Assembly (NCBI GenBank): GCA_019636795.1
Contig: JAHBWW010000001.1
Span: 248,001 to 312,000, forward strand
DNA from: Phycisphaeraceae bacterium
GTDB taxonomy: Bacteria; Planctomycetota; Phycisphaerae; Phycisphaerales; UBA1924
Direction: 5' to 3'
Length of the DNA stretch: 64,000 nucleotides
Below, piece by piece: positions 35,308 through 51,087 of the stretch. A model generated the notes under the pieces. The model did no database searches. It worked only from the letters and a program-made list of their open reading frames with translations, and was not told where the DNA came from. How positions within the stretch are numbered: the first letter of the stretch is position 1; each line of letters starts with the position of its first letter. Made by a program: the position numbers and the translations under genes.

Positions 35308-35769
35308 TCAGGTTACGGATGCGGGATCCTTGCCTTCCTCGATCATCGCGATCTTACCGACCCGCCGAGCGTGTCTTCCGCCCTCGAACTCGGTCTTGAG
35401 CCACACATCTACGATCTTCTCGATGAGACGCTCGCCGAGCAGGTCGGCCGACAAGCACAGCACATTAGCATTGTTGTGGCTGCGGCTGAGTTGCGCCGTC
35501 AGTTCGTCATGCACCACCGCCGCCCGTACGCCCGGGATCTTATTGGCCGCGATGCCCATGCCAATTCCAGTGCCGCAAATCAGAATTCCCAGATCAGCCC
35601 GCCCCGAGCGAATGGCCTGCCCGACATTCCACGCGCCTTCCGGGTAGTCACAGGGCTGGTCACCGCACGATCCAAGCACCTCAACCTCAAGCCCGCGAGT
35701 TTCGAGCATGGTCGCAAGATGTGTCGTCGTTGAATGTCCACGATGATCCGATCCGATGACGATCTTCAT
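35308..35769 (-). CDS. rpiB: Ribose-5-phosphate isomerase B
   Basis: RpiB interconverts ribose 5-phosphate and ribulose 5-phosphate in the pentose phosphate pathway. The 153 residues show GSDHRGHSTTTHL at the start, the anion-binding loop LICGTGIGMGIAANKIPGVRAAVVHD with the active-site Cys, and SRSHNNANVLCLSADLLGE. Size matches the RpiB/LacAB family. Its ATG overlaps the upstream fusion gene in ATGA. In Bacillus the same trio occurs as ywlC-ywlE-ywlF (TsaC-like, arginine phosphatase, RpiB), with the first two separate. Confidence 0.93.
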   Translation of the reverse strand: MKIVIGSDHRGHSTTTHLATMLETRGLEVEVLGSCGDQPCDYPEGAWNVGQAIRSGRADLGILICGTGIGMGIAANKIPGVRAAVVHDELTAQLSRSHNNANVLCLSADLLGERLIEKIVDVWLKTEFEGGRHARRVGKIAMIEEGKDPASVT

Positions 35770-36866
35770 ACGCTGAGTTCCTTCAAACGCTGCTCTATCA
35801 GAGCACGCAACTGCCGAGCCGTCGCCTCATATGCCGCGAGTGGAAGCCCGATCGGATCCTGCACATCGCCAGCCGGATCGAGCAAGTACGTCTTGCCGTC
35901 CGCGCCCGGATCGATTTCCAGCACTCGAGCCCGATGCGCAGCCGTCATGACGAAAATAGCATCTGCCCTGGCGCATTGCTTCCGCGTCAGCAATCGCGTG
36001 CGATGCCCGGAAATGTCAAACCCGAGTTTGCGCATCGTCTCGACTGCTTCCGCAGCCGCAGACATGCCATCCGCCGTCGCAATCCCTGCCGATTCAATCG
36101 TGATCAGATCATCCTTCGATTGCTCGATCATGCCCTCCGCAAGCGCAGCCGCCATCGGGCTTCGGCAAGTGTTGCCCGTGCATACGAAAAGAAGAATTCG
36201 CTCCGCTGCTTCCATGACATCAGACTCCGGAACCGCCCCGACATACTCAATCTCGAACCCACCACCAGCATGCAAGCGTACCGTCGTTGAGCCTTTCGCG
36301 TACAGCGTTCCCCCACCAGAAAGCACGCACCCGATCCGATCGTCCAGATCCACAGCACGCGGGTCGAGCCCGCCGTCGGCCCCGATCCCCGTCGCCGCAA
36401 GCCGAATCATCACGATCGGCCGATCCACGGGATCCAGAACTCGTCGTACGATCGGCAACATCGGCACCCTCACATCGAGTGCAACCCCATCATCAATCAC
36501 TCCCGCTTCGACGCCAAGGTCGTGCCGAAGCGCCCCCAGTCGCGCTGCGTCCAGTTCGATCACAAACCGCGTCGGCCCAGGAAGTAACTTTGTCAACAGG
36601 CGTTGATGCACTCGCGGCAACTGACCCAGTCGGCTCAACACGTCCTCACGCGAACTGGCGTGCCACGTGAGTGGGGCCGTTCCCAGACGCCCGATCTCCC
36701 GCAGCTTCTTCACCGCCCCCGGGTCGTCCGCAGCCGCCGCAACGCCATAGACCGTCTCGGTCGGCATGATGAGCAGCAGGCCCTCCTGAAGGCACGCCAC
36801 AGCACGCGAGACCGCCGTCTCAGCGCTTGTCGAGTCCAGTTGAATGACGCGTTCAGCCGTAGTCAC
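35766..36866 (-). CDS. Fusion of a diverged TsaC/Sua5 (YrdC) domain and a YwlE-like low-MW phosphatase
   Basis: Residues 1-205 are a YrdC-type domain: PTETVYGVAA (35-44) and LLPGPTRFVIEL (94-105) are clear. However, the conserved K-G-R is EIGR (57-60) with the Lys missing, and the SAN motif reads RLAAT (155-159), so threonylcarbamoyl-AMP synthesis is doubtful. Residues 224-366 are a low-molecular-weight tyrosine/arginine phosphatase with P-loop LFVCTGNTCRSPMA (C229, R235) and a late DP (VQDPIG). Thr233 in CTGNTCR matches Bacillus YwlE, whose Thr gives protein-arginine phosphatase activity, whereas tyrosine phosphatases have Ile. The start is a GTG. It is coupled by ATGA to rpiB. The reading of substrate is inference from one residue. 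Confidence 0.8.
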   Translation of the reverse strand: MTTAERVIQLDSTSAETAVSRAVACLQEGLLLIMPTETVYGVAAAADDPGAVKKLREIGRLGTAPLTWHASSREDVLSRLGQLPRVHQRLLTKLLPGPTRFVIELDAARLGALRHDLGVEAGVIDDGVALDVRVPMLPIVRRVLDPVDRPIVMIRLAATGIGADGGLDPRAVDLDDRIGCVLSGGGTLYAKGSTTVRLHAGGGFEIEYVGAVPESDVMEAAERILLFVCTGNTCRSPMAAALAEGMIEQSKDDLITIESAGIATADGMSAAAEAVETMRKLGFDISGHRTRLLTRKQCARADAIFVMTAAHRARVLEIDPGADGKTYLLDPAGDVQDPIGLPLAAYEATARQLRALIEQRLKELSV

Positions 36867-36918: not shown

Positions 36919-37659
36919 CTATCTCTCGCCCAGAATCGACATCTGCCGGATTGGCGTCTCGCGGTGCCGAGCTTCGCGCGCCGCGGTGATCTTCGCCATC
37001 GCTTCATCGACCGAGTCCGTCAGTGTCAACAGGTCCAGATCCTCCGGGCTCACCGTCCCTTCCGCGAGCAACCTCTCGCGCATGAACGCGAACAGAGGCT
37101 CCCAGAAGTCAACCCCCATCAACACGATCGGAAACTGCTCAATCTTTTTCGTCTGAACCAGCACCGCCGTCTCGAACACCTCATCAAGTGTCCCATACCC
37201 CCCCGGCATCACGATGAACGCATCCGAGTACTTCACAAGCATGACCTTGCGCACAAAAAAATACCGAAACTCTACGAATCGGTCAAGATACGGATTCGGC
37301 TCCTGCTCCATCGGCAACTGAATGTTGCACCCGATGCTCAGTCCTTTGCGATCCCGGGCACCCCGGTTGGCGGCCTCCATGATCCCAGGCCCGCCCCCGG
37401 TCATCACCGCAAACCCGGCATCTGCCAGCGCACGCCCAGCCTCGCGTGCGAGCTTGTAGTACCGATGATCCTCCGCGAACCGTGCCGAACCGAACACCGT
37501 CACGCATGGCCCGATGAAGTGCAACTGACGGAATCCGCGAATGAACTCCGAAAAAAAGCGCACCGACCGGAACAACTCCTCCCGCCGAAGCTTCGGGCCT
37601 TCGAGAAACGAGCGCTCCTCGCCGGGCGGGGGCTTCTTGCCCCAATCCGAACGCGTCAT
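36919..37659 (-). CDS. LOG family protein (TIGR00730 type, nucleoside-5'-monophosphate phosphoribohydrolase-like)
   Basis: The 246-residue protein has the Rossmann-type LOG fold. Motifs are GPCVTVFGSARF, MTGGGPGIMEAANRGA and PGGYGTLDEVFE, the last two forming the nucleotide and catalytic site of the family that hydrolyses nucleoside 5'-monophosphates to base and ribose 5-phosphate. In bacteria it is mostly of unknown physiological role. The start at ATG 37659 is chosen by homologue length; a TTG at 37698 is possible. It lies next to rpiB, which uses ribose 5-phosphate, on the same strand but 50 bp upstream of the fusion gene. Confidence 0.85.
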   Translation of the reverse strand: MTRSDWGKKPPPGEERSFLEGPKLRREELFRSVRFFSEFIRGFRQLHFIGPCVTVFGSARFAEDHRYYKLAREAGRALADAGFAVMTGGGPGIMEAANRGARDRKGLSIGCNIQLPMEQEPNPYLDRFVEFRYFFVRKVMLVKYSDAFIVMPGGYGTLDEVFETAVLVQTKKIEQFPIVLMGVDFWEPLFAFMRERLLAEGTVSPEDLDLLTLTDSVDEAMAKITAAREARHRETPIRQMSILGER

Positions 37660-37793
37660 ATTCTGCCAGATCGATTTCTTGCCCACTCTTCGCCCCAAGT
37701 CTCTAAAACCAGAATCGTGCCGTGCTCCGCACGCAAAAATACGTCCCGCCTGTTACTATCGGCTCAAATGGGGTGCAAGTCTCCAGCAACACC

Positions 37794-39587: not shown

Positions 39588-42104
39588 TCACCGCTGCCTG
39601 CCAACGTCTGGCCGTCGCATCGACCCCGAGCGAATGGTCCCATCGCGCATGATTTCCACCCAGCTCGCACCATCGAGCGCAGTCACATACCACTCACGCG
39701 TTTGCTTCGCACCGTTCCAGCGTTCATCGCGCGCTCGCCTGATGCCTGTCGATTGCAGCACCACACGGGGACCGACCGCCTCGACAAACTCCCACGCCTT
39801 GAGCGAAAAACTCCCGTGGTGCGGCACTTCCAGCACGTCGGCCGCGATCCACTCGCGATCTTCGAGCAGCACCTCCATCGCTCCCGATTCGATGTCGCCC
39901 GTCAACAACACGCGCCGCACGCCGACATCGGTTTGGACCTCCAATCGACACACGACCGAAACTTCGTTGTCCTTGGCCATCTCCGCCGATGCTGGTGGCC
40001 AAAGGACCATGATCGCAGTATGCCCCAGCACGTCGTAATCACCGCGAGCGATCGTCTCCGGCTCAACGTTGCGCGACCTCAGTTCTTCATGCAATGACCG
40101 CAGTGGTGCGTTCTTGGCAACCAAGAAATGCTCTGGCACAAGCACGCGATCAATCCCAAACACCTCCATCGCATCCGGAAGCGAAATGTAATGGTCCAGA
40201 TCCGCGTGTGTCACCACCGCAGCAGAAACAGCGCGCACACCAAGGGCACGCTGCGCCCGTTCCAGCACCGGCCTCAGGTCCGCACGCAACGATCCGCAAT
40301 CCCAGATCATCGCCTCACGCCCACTGCGCACAATGAAGCACGACCCATCCCCGACCGCCAGCGTATCGATGCGCAACACGACCCCCGACCGAAGCGGCCG
40401 ATTCCCCGTCTGAAACAGCGCAACGCTCGCTACGAGCAGCCCCATCGCTGCGATCAGAGGCCAGTTCCAAACTCGCGCCGCGCGCAGATAGATCCACAAC
40501 GTCACCATCGCAACGCACGCCCACAGCGCGCTCGAAGGCGCCACAGTCGGTGCAAGCGATTCGATCGCCGCCACACGCGCTATCCATCCGCCTCCCCAAT
40601 CCGCAGCCTCGATCATGAGCAGGACCAGCATCGCAGCGCTCCCGGGCCAGATCAGATGCATGAACAACGCAACATATCCCACTCCCAGCAGCACCACGAT
40701 CAGTGGTGTCATGAACGCTGTCGTCAGCGCGCCCGTCAGATTCACCTGCCCGGTGTGACACATCACGATCGGCAGCGAGAACAGCCAGCAGACCACGCAC
40801 ACGCCAAGATATCCACGCATTCTCCTCATCAGCCGAGTCGCATTCGACACGCGACCTTTCTTGATTCCCAGGATGCGAGGCTCGACGAGCCACCGATGTT
40901 TCGCCAATCCAGGCCAAAGAAGCAGCGCCGTGATCCCGACACTCAACTGCGCACCCATCGAGAACACGTCCATCGGTCTCCACACGAACAAACCCACCGC
41001 GACCCACCCGAGCATGGTCAGCCTGTCATACCGACGCCCCAACGCATCGCTCAGCAGAAGCACCAGCACCATCACCCCGGCCCGCACAATCGGCACCCGC
41101 GCCGGAACCAGCACCAGCACAAGCAACACCAGTGCCGCGAGCACGAGCGATTCGAGCCCGCCGTGCTCCCCACTCAATCGAAGCCCCATCGCTGCAATCG
41201 CGCACAACACCGCAAGATGAAACCCCGAGATCGCAAGCAGGTGCGATGTACCTGTCGCAGCGAAGGCGCTGCGTGACTCGCGCAGCGCCGGATCATCTTC
41301 GCCGAGCAGAATCGCACGGAGGATGGCCCGTCCCGCTGTCGGCTCGCCATCGAGCAGCCCCGACGCACGCGCGCGCAGAGCGTTCGTCATCCGCACCGCG
41401 CCCGCCCGCCATCCCGGCGAACCCTCATCAATTCGTTCGATCAACGCCCCTGACGATGTCGAGACCGATCCTGCTCTTCCGCTCAGTCTGGCCCACCGCA
41501 GCCGATCACTATCCCCCGGATTCATAGACGCAACTGGCGGCAGGTACCAGCCCACCAGCCGCACCTTCGCGCCAGGCTCAATGTGCGCAAGCGAATCCTC
41601 AGCCTGGTCATCGACATACACACGTACCGATCCGCTCGCACGCCTCATTCCATCGCCCAGGTGAGCCTTCTCGACCCGCAGATCAAACGACGCGCCAGCC
41701 TGTCCAAACCGATAGCGCGACAGGCGATCAATCGCCTCACGCCGCGGCTCGGGCTTTGACAGCACAAGGCCTTCGACCGCAAGAAGCGTGCGCCCATCGC
41801 CCACAGCTACGCGCTCGATCGAGTCCCATCGGATCGTCTCCGTCCGGAGCACGAACCAACCGCCCGCCACCGATCCGACCGTGAGCAGCAGGAGCACTCG
41901 TTGCCCGCGCCCACGCACAAACACCGCAGCCACCGCCGCTACGCCCGCAGCCGCCCACCACGCAAGCATCGTTGTCTCGATCCGAGTTGCAACGGTCGCA
42001 GCCGCTCCGATTGCCAGCACGCACAGCCACACCCGCCTTCGAGCCGGGACTGGCTCCTCCTGCACGAGATCAAGTGATGGCGCATCATCGAACACGGCCG
42101 ACAT
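39588..42104 (-). CDS. comEC: ComEC/Rec2-family DNA-uptake channel with C-terminal metallo-beta-lactamase-like domain
   Basis: The 838-residue membrane protein forms the channel that takes single-stranded DNA into the cytoplasm in natural transformation. The competence domain shows HLLAISGFHLAVLCAIAAM, preceded by LRAILLGEDDPALRESRSAFAATG, and many helices follow. The C-terminal domain has VVTHADLDHYISLPDAM, LLTGDIES and VPHHGSFSLKAWE, the metal-ligand pattern of the nuclease-like ComEC beta-lactamase domain. An N-terminal OB-like region is present. It is the only competence gene in the window, but the pilin-like gene next upstream on the same strand could belong to the same system. The ATG follows GGCGGGCAC. 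Confidence 0.9.
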   Translation of the reverse strand: MSAVFDDAPSLDLVQEEPVPARRRVWLCVLAIGAAATVATRIETTMLAWWAAAGVAAVAAVFVRGRGQRVLLLLTVGSVAGGWFVLRTETIRWDSIERVAVGDGRTLLAVEGLVLSKPEPRREAIDRLSRYRFGQAGASFDLRVEKAHLGDGMRRASGSVRVYVDDQAEDSLAHIEPGAKVRLVGWYLPPVASMNPGDSDRLRWARLSGRAGSVSTSSGALIERIDEGSPGWRAGAVRMTNALRARASGLLDGEPTAGRAILRAILLGEDDPALRESRSAFAATGTSHLLAISGFHLAVLCAIAAMGLRLSGEHGGLESLVLAALVLLVLVLVPARVPIVRAGVMVLVLLLSDALGRRYDRLTMLGWVAVGLFVWRPMDVFSMGAQLSVGITALLLWPGLAKHRWLVEPRILGIKKGRVSNATRLMRRMRGYLGVCVVCWLFSLPIVMCHTGQVNLTGALTTAFMTPLIVVLLGVGYVALFMHLIWPGSAAMLVLLMIEAADWGGGWIARVAAIESLAPTVAPSSALWACVAMVTLWIYLRAARVWNWPLIAAMGLLVASVALFQTGNRPLRSGVVLRIDTLAVGDGSCFIVRSGREAMIWDCGSLRADLRPVLERAQRALGVRAVSAAVVTHADLDHYISLPDAMEVFGIDRVLVPEHFLVAKNAPLRSLHEELRSRNVEPETIARGDYDVLGHTAIMVLWPPASAEMAKDNEVSVVCRLEVQTDVGVRRVLLTGDIESGAMEVLLEDREWIAADVLEVPHHGSFSLKAWEFVEAVGPRVVLQSTGIRRARDERWNGAKQTREWYVTALDGASWVEIMRDGTIRSGSMRRPDVGRQR

Positions 42105-48531: not shown

Positions 48532-51087
48532 ATGTTTGAACGATTTACCGACCGCGCGCGCAAAGTCATGGCCCTGGCCAATCAGGAAGCGCAGCGCTTC
48601 AACCACGAATACATTGGGACGGAGCACATCCTTCTCGGCCTTGTCAAGGAAGGCTCGGGGGTGGGTGCCAATGTCCTGAAGAATCTGGATGTTGACCTGC
48701 GCAAGGTCCGCCTCGAAGTCGAGAAACTCGTCAAGGCCGGTCCGGAAATGGTCACGATGGGAAAACTCCCCCAGACCCCGCGGGCCAAAAAGGTCATCGA
48801 GTACGCGATTGAAGAGGCTCGCAACCTCAACCACAACTACGTCGGCACCGAACACTTGCTGCTCGGCCTGCTGCGTGAGCACGACGGAGTCGCAGCCCAG
48901 GTTCTGATGAACCTGAACCTCAAACTCGAAGAGGTGCGCGAAGAAGTTCTGAACCTCCTCGGCGCTGGTGCCGAGACCGATACATCGGCAGGCGAGACCG
49001 CGATTCCGGGCGCAGCCCCGGGCAATGGCGGCGAGGCCCGCGGAGCACGCCGCAAGAGTCAGACTCCGGCGCTCGATTCCTTCGGGCGCGACCTGACCGA
49101 ACTGGCGCGCGAGTCGCAGCTTGACCCGGTCATCGGGCGCGCCACCGAGATCGAGCGACTCACGCAGGTGCTCTGCCGACGCACGAAGAATAACCCTGTC
49201 CTCCTCGGTGAAGCTGGCGTGGGCAAGACCGCGATCGTCGAAGGGCTTGCGCAGCGCATTGTGGCGCAGGACGTGCCGGACATTCTGCACGACAAGAGGC
49301 TGGTCGTGCTCGATCTTGCGATGATGGTTGCCGGTACGAAGTACCGCGGACAGTTCGAGGAGCGCATCAAGGCGGTCATGAACGAGGTCCGCCGGGCCAA
49401 GAACGTGATTCTGTTCATCGACGAACTGCACACGCTCGTCGGTGCCGGTGGGGCCGAGGGCGCGATCGATGCGTCCAACGTGCTCAAGCCGGCGCTGGCG
49501 CGTGGCGAGATTCAGTGCATCGGAGCGACGACCTTCGACGAGTACCGCAAGTACATCGAGAAGGACGCGGCGCTGGCGCGGCGGTTCCAGTCGATTCCGG
49601 TCGATCCGCCCACCGACGCGCAGACGGTCGAGATCATCAAGGGCCTGCGCGATCGGTATGAAGAGCATCACCGCGTGCGCATCACCGATGAAGCGGTCAA
49701 GGCTGCGGTTGAACTCTCGGGCCGGTACATCACCGGACGTGTCCAGCCGGACAAGTCGATCGACGTGATCGATGAGGCCGGTGCGCGAGTGCGCATCAAG
49801 AGCATGACCAAGCCACCAGACCTTGCCGAGATCGAGGCCGACATCGAGCGCCTCAGCGTCGAAAAGGATGAAGCCGTGCGCGGTGCCGACTATGAGAAGG
49901 CTGCCGATCTGCGCGATCGGGCTGAGAAACTCCGCAAGAAGAAGGAAGAAATTCAGGATGAGTGGCGCGCCCGCAGCCTCGAGATCGACGGCGTGGTCGA
50001 CGAGGACGTCATTGCTGAAGTCGTCAGCAAGATGACGGGCGTTCCGCTGACGCGGCTCGAGAAGGAAGAGGCGCAGCGCCTGCTCAGCCTCGAAGTCGAA
50101 CTGCACAAGAAGGTCGTCAGCCAGGACGAAGCGATCAAGGCCATGGCCAAGGCCATTCGCCGCGCTCGCGCCGGGCTCAAGGATCCAAAACGCCCGATGG
50201 GTTCGTTCATCTTCGTCGGCCCGTCTGGTGTGGGCAAGACGCTGCTGTCCAAGGCACTGGCCGAGTTCATGTTCGGCGACGCTGATGCGCTCATTCACCT
50301 CGACATGAGCGAGTACATGGAGAAGCACAACGTTTCGCGCCTGGTCGGCGCGCCTCCCGGATACGTCGGGTACGAAGAGGGCGGGCAGCTCACCGAGCAG
50401 ATCCGCCGTCGACCCTATGCCGTCGTGCTGCTCGATGAAGTCGAGAAGGCCCACCCGGATGTGTTCAACATGCTCCTTCAGATCATGGAAGAAGGGCGTC
50501 TGACCGATTCGTTCGGGCGCCATGTCGATTTCAAGAACACCATCCTGATCATGACGAGCAACATCGGCGCTGATCTGATCAAGGGTGGTGCGGGCTTCGG
50601 CTTCCAGAAGCGATCCAGTGAGGTTGACTACGAAAACATCAAGGGCATCCTGATGAAGGAGATCGAGCGCTTCTTCAGGCCCGAGTTCATCAACCGACTC
50701 GACGATGTGATTGTCTTCAGGCCTTTGACCCGCGAAGATCTCGTCGGCATCGTCGAGTTCGAGGTTGGCAAGGTTGCCATCCGGCTCAAGGAGCAGGGCT
50801 ACACCATCGAGCTCGATCCGGCAGCCAAGGAGTTCCTGATCGAGAAGGGGTACAACCCGGACTTTGGCGCCCGTCCGTTGCGTCGCGCGATCGGGACGTA
50901 CATCGAAGATCCGCTGAGCGAGCAACTGCTCTCCGGCGAACTCCATGGCATGAACCACCTGCTCATCGGGCGCAAGGAGGGCGTCGATGCGCTGTTCTTC
51001 GAGGCGTCTCGCACCGAGCCGGCACAATCGGGTGAAGCAAGCGACTCGGGCAGTAAGCCACAGGAAGCACAGTCATCGTCAACCTGA
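48532..51087 (+). CDS. clpC: ClpC-type AAA+ unfoldase with UVR motif
   Basis: The 851-residue Hsp100 protein unfolds proteins for ClpP. The N-domain (residues 1-145) has two Clp_N repeats; D1 has Walker [10 protein letters not shown] (226-234) and Walker [11 protein letters not shown] middle region with [21 protein letters not shown] forms the UVR motif that, in Bacillus ClpC, belongs to the region bound by adaptors. D2 has [20 protein letters not shown] and the ClpP-binding loop region GAGFGFQ. The first Walker residues are all intact, so it is active. It is probably controlled at its leader. In firmicutes ClpC works with the arginine-phosphate tag; a YwlE-like phosphatase is encoded 12 kb away. 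Terminator follows at 51115-51146. Confidence 0.96.

Follow-up and report, generated by a model that had tools for sequence, protein, structure and literature searches.

TsaC/Sua5 synthases carry a catalytic tetrad, KxR/SxN, which is described in the available portion of PMC9654439 and which serves in the accessible text of PMC10321239 as a filter for TsaC/Sua5 matches; according to the latter text, species with both a TsaC and a Sua5 are few. According to the same portion of PMC9654439, HypF and TobZ are multidomain carbamoyl transferases containing a YrdC-like domain. On the phosphatase side, an excerpt of PMC8001253 reports that a Thr at position 5 of the active-site loop directs YwlE and PtpB to phosphoarginine, while an Ile directs the enzyme to phosphotyrosine. 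McsB and YwlE are also treated in the part of PMC8370763 that is available, and in Bacillus subtilis YwlE counters the McsB-driven degradation of TsaD by ClpCP (PMC7546277, available portion).

A fusion of a TsaC-like and a YwlE-type domain

A 64,000-nucleotide stretch of a Phycisphaeraceae genome (contig JAHBWW010000001.1, positions 248,001 to 312,000; hereafter the window) contains a single 366-residue open reading frame with a GTG start, in which a YrdC/TsaC-like domain precedes a YwlE-type phosphatase domain (Table 1). An earlier note made from the sequence alone had placed both domains in one frame; its coordinates are correct, the gene lies on the minus strand, and both domains exceed their Pfam cut-offs (Sua5_yciO_yrdC, PF01300, 55.8 bits against 25.1; LMWPc, PF01451, 86.8 bits against 23.2).

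Table 1. Features of the fusion gene and related genes in the window
Feature	Position	Strand	Basis
Fusion gene, pseudo-TsaC and YwlE-type phosphatase	35766..36866	-	ORF reading, Pfam
YrdC/TsaC-like domain, residues 26-199	36270..36791	-	Pfam, structure match
KxR motif site, E-I-G-R-L at residues 57-61, without the Lys and perhaps with the Arg	36684..36698	-	Alignments
SxN motif site, residues 155-157, R-L-A	36396..36404	-	Alignments
LMWPc (YwlE-type phosphatase) domain, residues 226-358	35793..36191	-	Pfam, structure match
P-loop CTGNTCR at residues 229-235, including the Thr associated with phosphoarginine (PMC8001253, excerpt)	36162..36182	-	Sequence, alignment
Asp337 of the D-P motif (general acid), aligned with D-P of YwlE	35856..35858	-	Alignment
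rpiB (ribose-5-phosphate isomerase B)	35308..35769	-	ATGA overlap of its start with the fusion stop
ClpC-like AAA+ unfoldase, two Clp_N and UVR, not adjacent to the fusion	48532..51087	+	Domain scan

The note had also reported that the TsaC motifs are lost, and the alignments agree. The Lys of KxR is absent (REI-GRLG), and the SxN site reads R155-L-A157, so that both Ser and Asn are replaced. The Arg of KxR can be aligned as R60 in one alignment and falls in a gap in a larger one; thus K, S and N have been replaced, leaving at most one of the four tetrad residues, the Arg. The TsaC equivalog model TIGR00057 gives 71 bits, under its cut-off of 123.2. With most of the tetrad replaced and a score below the equivalog cut-off, the window protein is not filed as a TsaC. 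Annotation by homology alone could nevertheless give it that name, most likely wrongly, and decayed fusions of this type would fail the tetrad filter as described in the accessible text of PMC10321239.

The phosphatase half retains its active-site elements. Its P-loop (C229-T-G-N-T-C-R235 followed by S236, CTGNTCRS) fits C(X)4CR(S/T), and its Thr, to which the earlier note had drawn attention, makes it the loop reported for phosphoarginine. The general acid motif D337-P aligns with that of YwlE and is fully conserved (1.00) in the 192 aligned fusions described below, and the closest solved relatives by sequence are the T. tengcongensis LMW-PTP and YwlE. The protein shows the sequence features examined for a YwlE-type arginine phosphatase and most likely acts as one.

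An AlphaFold model of the protein (pLDDT 88.1, pTM 0.78), built from an alignment that also contains intact TsaC sequences, matches Sua5/TsaC2 chains in its N half (Z 22.6-24.1, rmsd 2.4-2.8, 203-208 residues aligned); the worn half is thus predicted to be folded. Its C half aligns to chains of YwlE (Z 22.2-24.1) as well as to further LMW phosphatases.

Like YwlE and PtpB of the Bacillota, the window protein combines the LMWPc fold, a CX4CRS loop in which the fifth variable position is Thr and an Asp-Pro acid, with rpiB downstream (as in Priestia) and McsA- and McsB-like genes in the genome; unlike YwlE, a single-domain protein, it has an extra N-terminal TsaC-like domain. With TsaC/Sua5 synthases it shares the predicted fold and the PTETVYG core, and K, S and N are all kept in 125 of the 192 aligned fusions; unlike the synthases, the window protein itself lacks these three residues and has a phosphatase in place of the SUA5 domain. 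HypF and TobZ likewise hold a YrdC-like domain within a larger protein, but there it is paired with a Kae1-like domain (PMC9654439, available portion), whereas here the partner is an LMW phosphatase: a Pfam scan of the window protein up to E 0.1 returned PF01300 and PF01451 only, with no Kae1, acylphosphatase or zinc finger domain.

Distribution and gene neighbourhood

The window protein as a query finds matches, which may cover the phosphatase alone, in 280 of the 294 genomes searched in the phylum. The fusion was retrieved and aligned from at least 130 of these 294 genomes in 52 families, the source genome included, a count that omits partial fusions and those outside the matches listed. An order-level draw added 59, for a total of 189 genome fusions, and a related-locus search contributed three more from Omnitrophota and Kiritimatiellales, in which the PF01300 part reaches 138.8-179.1 bits. 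The aligned set therefore comprises 192 fusions; eight phosphatase-only loci were excluded from it, and one genome (G380) in which a remnant is recognized only by profile also stands outside. Loci L007 to L009 do not enter the 189-genome tests below because their genomes were not searched; one table of the counts lists them among the fusions with no Sua5.

The kinase domain PF00217 is found in 280 of the 294 genomes and in 126 of the 130 fusion genomes, by a search that can miss the gene: it was positive in none of 14 named control genomes, B. subtilis included, which has McsB (PMC7546277, available portion). The corresponding TsaD control found 13 of 14 genomes, missing Corynebacterium glutamicum. 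Since the controls missed known genes, absences weigh less, and a genome scored as having no Sua5 may hide a missed one; positive matches rest on their own scores.

In 144 of the 192 fusions an rpiB frame follows in the same orientation; in the others there is none in the stretch read (42), or it is upstream (3), on the opposite strand (2) or cut off by a contig end (1). In the window the overlap of rpiB with the fusion stop, as read in the earlier note, is present. The note's comparison with a Bacillus-type cluster needs a small amendment: Priestia megaterium has the separate genes in the order TsaC gene, mntP, ywlE, rpiB. In Acetoanaerobium (Clostridia), three neighbouring separate frames were read by eye as Sua5, ywlE and rpiB. 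The fusion most likely arose from such a Bacillota-like cluster of separate neighbouring genes.

The gene that immediately precedes the fusion, in the same orientation, encodes a LOG-family protein (36919-37698, minus strand; TIGR00730, 161.8 bits); two of 200 loci have a LOG match within their stretch. Farther away in the window is a ComEC/Rec2-like protein with Competence, DUF4131 and Lactamase_B domains (39591-42104, minus strand). A different TsaC fusion, joining a YrdC/TsaC domain to TsaE (PF02367) in one protein, occurs in four Woesebacteria loci (L010, L013, L029 and L032).

Loss of the TsaC motifs and a separate Sua5

The source genome (3.49 Mb, 97% complete) has two PF01300 matches, the fusion and a protein on contig 8. 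The latter, 320 residues long, has the motifs KSRPSTNPL and PSANRSG and a Sua5_C domain, and scores 185.6 bits with TIGR00057 (cut-off 123.2). The second intact tsaC that the earlier note had proposed to look for is therefore present, as a separate gene of the Sua5 type, and this rules out the fused domain as the cell's sole TsaC. TsaD is found in the same genome at 290.4 bits. Eight PF07596 matches in this genome (the best at 32.4 bits) belong to a family common in Planctomycetota; they agree with that phylum but are no proof of it.

Across the 192 fusions the Cys, Arg and Ser of the phosphatase are invariant (192/192); of the TsaC motif residues, K survives in 131 fusions, S in 146 and N in 135, as read from one MAFFT alignment whose columns may be misplaced in the most decayed rows. 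A fusion was called intact when K, S and N are all retained. A separate Sua5 was defined as a PF01300 match outside the fusion of at least 144 bits and not HypF-like, assigned manually by reading the search tables; two proteins in frames of 940 and 955 residues (G347 and G332) were counted as Sua5 by their scores of 201.5 and 183.1 bits, and weak second matches, such as that of G140 (34.7 bits), were excluded. The raw number of PF01300 matches was dropped as a count of second TsaC genes because many second matches lie in HypF-like frames of at least 755 residues.

By these definitions the 189 genome fusions divide into 116 intact without a Sua5 found, 63 with motif loss and a Sua5, six intact with a Sua5 and four with motif loss and no Sua5 found (Fisher p 7e-38, a value that ignores kinship). 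Both motifs, K and the SxN pair, are lost in 53 fusions from nine families, and all 53 genomes have a Sua5. A tree built from the phosphatase half alone implies a minimum of 22 changes in Sua5 presence and of 17 in motif loss. Of the 10 supported, independent pairs whose members differ in Sua5, a mean of 5.9 differ in motif loss in the same direction and none in the opposite direction, while 4.1 show no difference in it (median p 0.031); when loss of both motifs is demanded, these values become 4.0, 0 and 6.0 (median p 0.125). The reverse test has seven pairs, of which 5.9 agree in direction and none is opposed (median p 0.031); with loss of both motifs demanded it has six pairs, 4.2 agreeing and none opposed (median p 0.125).

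The four fusions with motif loss and no Sua5 found are G274, the clearest (KQ/AA, 99% complete), G188 and G029 (both with R for K), and G289 (81% complete). The six intact ones with a Sua5 are G346, G376, G219, G031, G209 and G261, the last two being scored intact by K, S and N although their fusion domains reach only 82.2 and 75.6 bits. At the level of sequence, motif loss is associated with a separate Sua5 across the phylum. In 116 of 189 fusions all three residues are retained and the searches gave no separate Sua5, so the ancestral fusion was probably a true bifunctional TsaC-YwlE enzyme.

The explanation that we consider probable is that the window protein is an arginine phosphatase opposing an McsA-McsB-like kinase and retaining a pseudo-TsaC domain that decayed after a separate Sua5 took over. 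The history would have begun with a working bifunctional enzyme, fused within an old tsaC-ywlE-rpiB cluster, whose N-terminal domain made threonylcarbamoyl-AMP (TC-AMP) for the t6A of tRNA. A separate Sua5-type TsaC would then have taken over t6A synthesis in ancestors of this lineage, after which the fused half would have lost its catalytic tetrad and become a pseudo-enzyme, kept, we propose, mainly through its place in the folded phosphatase protein, but already gone in some relatives. The sequences show the fusion and its loss of motifs, a separate intact Sua5, the kinase, the phylum-wide association and the faster yet constrained evolution described below; that TC-AMP synthesis is lost, that the enzyme is specific for phosphoarginine, in which order the events occurred and that the domain has a structural role are what we infer from them.

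Fate of the decayed domain

In the window's family, represented by 46 genomes including the source genome, all 33 aligned fusions are decayed; the remnant visible only by profile in G380 is a decayed fusion of this family as well. The other 12 genomes have the phosphatase and no YrdC remnant in the stretch read; among these, the Sua5 of G425 is a contig-edge fragment only (54 bits), and G368 has a second PF01300 match outside the matches listed. Across the order, 27 of the 28 phosphatase-only loci read lack a YrdC remnant.

Where the domain persists, it changes more quickly. For same-family pairs at 50-60% phosphatase identity, identity of the YrdC half is 53.3% in intact fusions (130 pairs) against 36.4% in decayed ones (126 pairs). 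The genus-median ratio of dN(YrdC) to dN(phosphatase) is 1.02-1.90 in eight motif-lost genera, one of which (g113) has mostly lost K alone, against 0.60-2.03 in 11 intact genera (Mann-Whitney p 0.007); the top ratio among the latter belongs to a genus without the Arg of KxR. In all eight motif-lost genera the YrdC half nevertheless has a median dN below dS, with dS often near or past saturation. The decayed YrdC domain thus evolves faster, yet is still under constraint.

This constraint bears on the alternative that the earlier note had put forward, namely that the YrdC remnant is a nucleotide-sensing arm; in a broader form, the pseudo-TsaC would bind ATP, threonine or bicarbonate without catalysis and tune the phosphatase. 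The 33 decayed family fusions conserve PTETxYG, PGP, R133 (100%), P135, S193 (94%), T194 (82%) and W68-H69-A70 at 82-100%, and these residues presumably line the pocket. Together with dN below dS in every motif-lost genus and a fold predicted to be intact, this speaks for a sensor, and part of the conserved core would be unneeded by a mere scaffold, a point that counts against our preferred explanation. However, the catalytic positions drift: the K and R positions show 26 different residue pairs in the 33 fusions, with no new consensus. The Ser of SxN has become Arg in 18 of the 33, the window protein included, possibly as a pocket-filling or phosphate-binding residue. Moreover, 12 of the 46 family genomes have no remnant in the stretch read, another decayed family (f30) retains fewer of the residues (R133 0.80, S193 0.50, G41 mostly Val), and those that are conserved may merely hold the fold. 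The pattern appears to be that expected of a folded, non-catalytic domain, and would fit a scaffold and a ligand sensor alike. Of the note's interpretation, then, the motif loss, the phosphoarginine-type loop, the second TsaC and the kinase stand, and the sensing arm is possible but doubtful.

Possible arginine phosphorylation in the source genome

The McsB-like protein that the earlier note had suggested seeking is encoded in the source genome, adjoining an McsA-like protein. It scores 196.6 bits with PF00217 (cut-off 22.4) and up to 365.1 bits with NCBIfam protein-arginine-kinase models, below their cut-offs (385 for that model); the McsA-like protein reaches 120.3 bits with the NCBIfam McsA model, below the cut-off of 210. 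Some 12 kb away from the fusion, the window itself encodes an unfoldase that has a UVR motif and two Clp_N repeats, both containing GTEH(I/L)LLGL. Its best NCBIfam models are ClpB and ClpA, both under cut-off, and ClpC is our own reading; the protein could be a candidate reader of phosphoarginine marks.

That the substrate is phosphoarginine is suggested by analogy, through a single loop residue whose role is known from YwlE and PtpB. The LMWPc family is best known for its tyrosine phosphatases, and the phosphatase half might instead be a tyrosine phosphatase outside any arginine-phosphorylation system. Position 5 of the P-loop is not Thr in 24 of the 192 fusions (Ser 12, Leu 5, Ile 3, Arg 3, Met 1; for example L048, L063 and L057), and the eight with Ile or Leu, all outside the window's family, may be of the tyrosine type despite PF00217 in their genomes. 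For the window protein this is improbable, given the Thr in all 33 aligned members of its family, the McsA- and McsB-like genes in its genome and its best solved relatives. The source genome has two other LMWPc matches, one full-length with the Ile form of the loop (CLGNICRS) and one of about 20 residues resembling ArsC. At L005:1498-1983 (minus strand), an ORF matches the start of arsenate reductase with its last 20 or so residues and then ends; it lies beside frames resembling, by eye, ArsR and a methyltransferase, and is possibly a frameshifted or truncated arsC.

It is highly improbable that the domain, with its active site altered, still makes TC-AMP or some different acyl- or carbamoyl-adenylate: it does score above its Pfam cut-off and R60 and R133 remain, but three of the four tetrad positions are replaced, the TsaC equivalog score is under cut-off and an intact Sua5 is present. 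An artefact of assembly or gene calling, for which one could cite the single stop codon inside the match in the search-table rows of G222 and G321 (2 of 192), can be dismissed, as the two domains lie in one open frame in aligned loci from 189 genomes and three loci of other phyla, and this, with both domains above curated cut-offs, indicates that the fusion is not due to chance.

Implications

The finding that YwlE protects TsaD from ClpCP in B. subtilis (PMC7546277, available portion) links both halves of the fusion in one pathway, and the stability of TsaD could be tied to the supply of TC-AMP through a TsaC-YwlE fusion. The corresponding larger idea, that t6A synthesis and protein-arginine dephosphorylation are wired in one enzyme in Planctomycetota-like bacteria and relatives, with the TsaC half surviving as a ligand-sensing pseudo-enzyme where Sua5 took over, strikes us as unlikely; if true, the pseudo-TsaC would report the state of threonine, bicarbonate or ATP to arginine dephosphorylation.

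The literature found on arginine phosphorylation deals mostly with Bacillus, Staphylococcus, Clostridioides and mycobacteria. Here the kinase domain is widespread in another phylum (PF00217 in 280 of 294 genomes), and the candidate phosphatase occurs in a fused form, the TsaC-YwlE fusion, of which literature searches among open-licence papers found no description. Since the decay accompanies a separate replacement enzyme, and many relatives are apparently intact, the fusion offers a case of one half of a protein dying while the other lives on. It forms a natural series, recurring in several families, from an enzyme with two jobs through a half-dead enzyme to one whose dead half is lost, which allows one to ask when a pseudo-enzyme domain is retained for a new function and when it is heading for loss.
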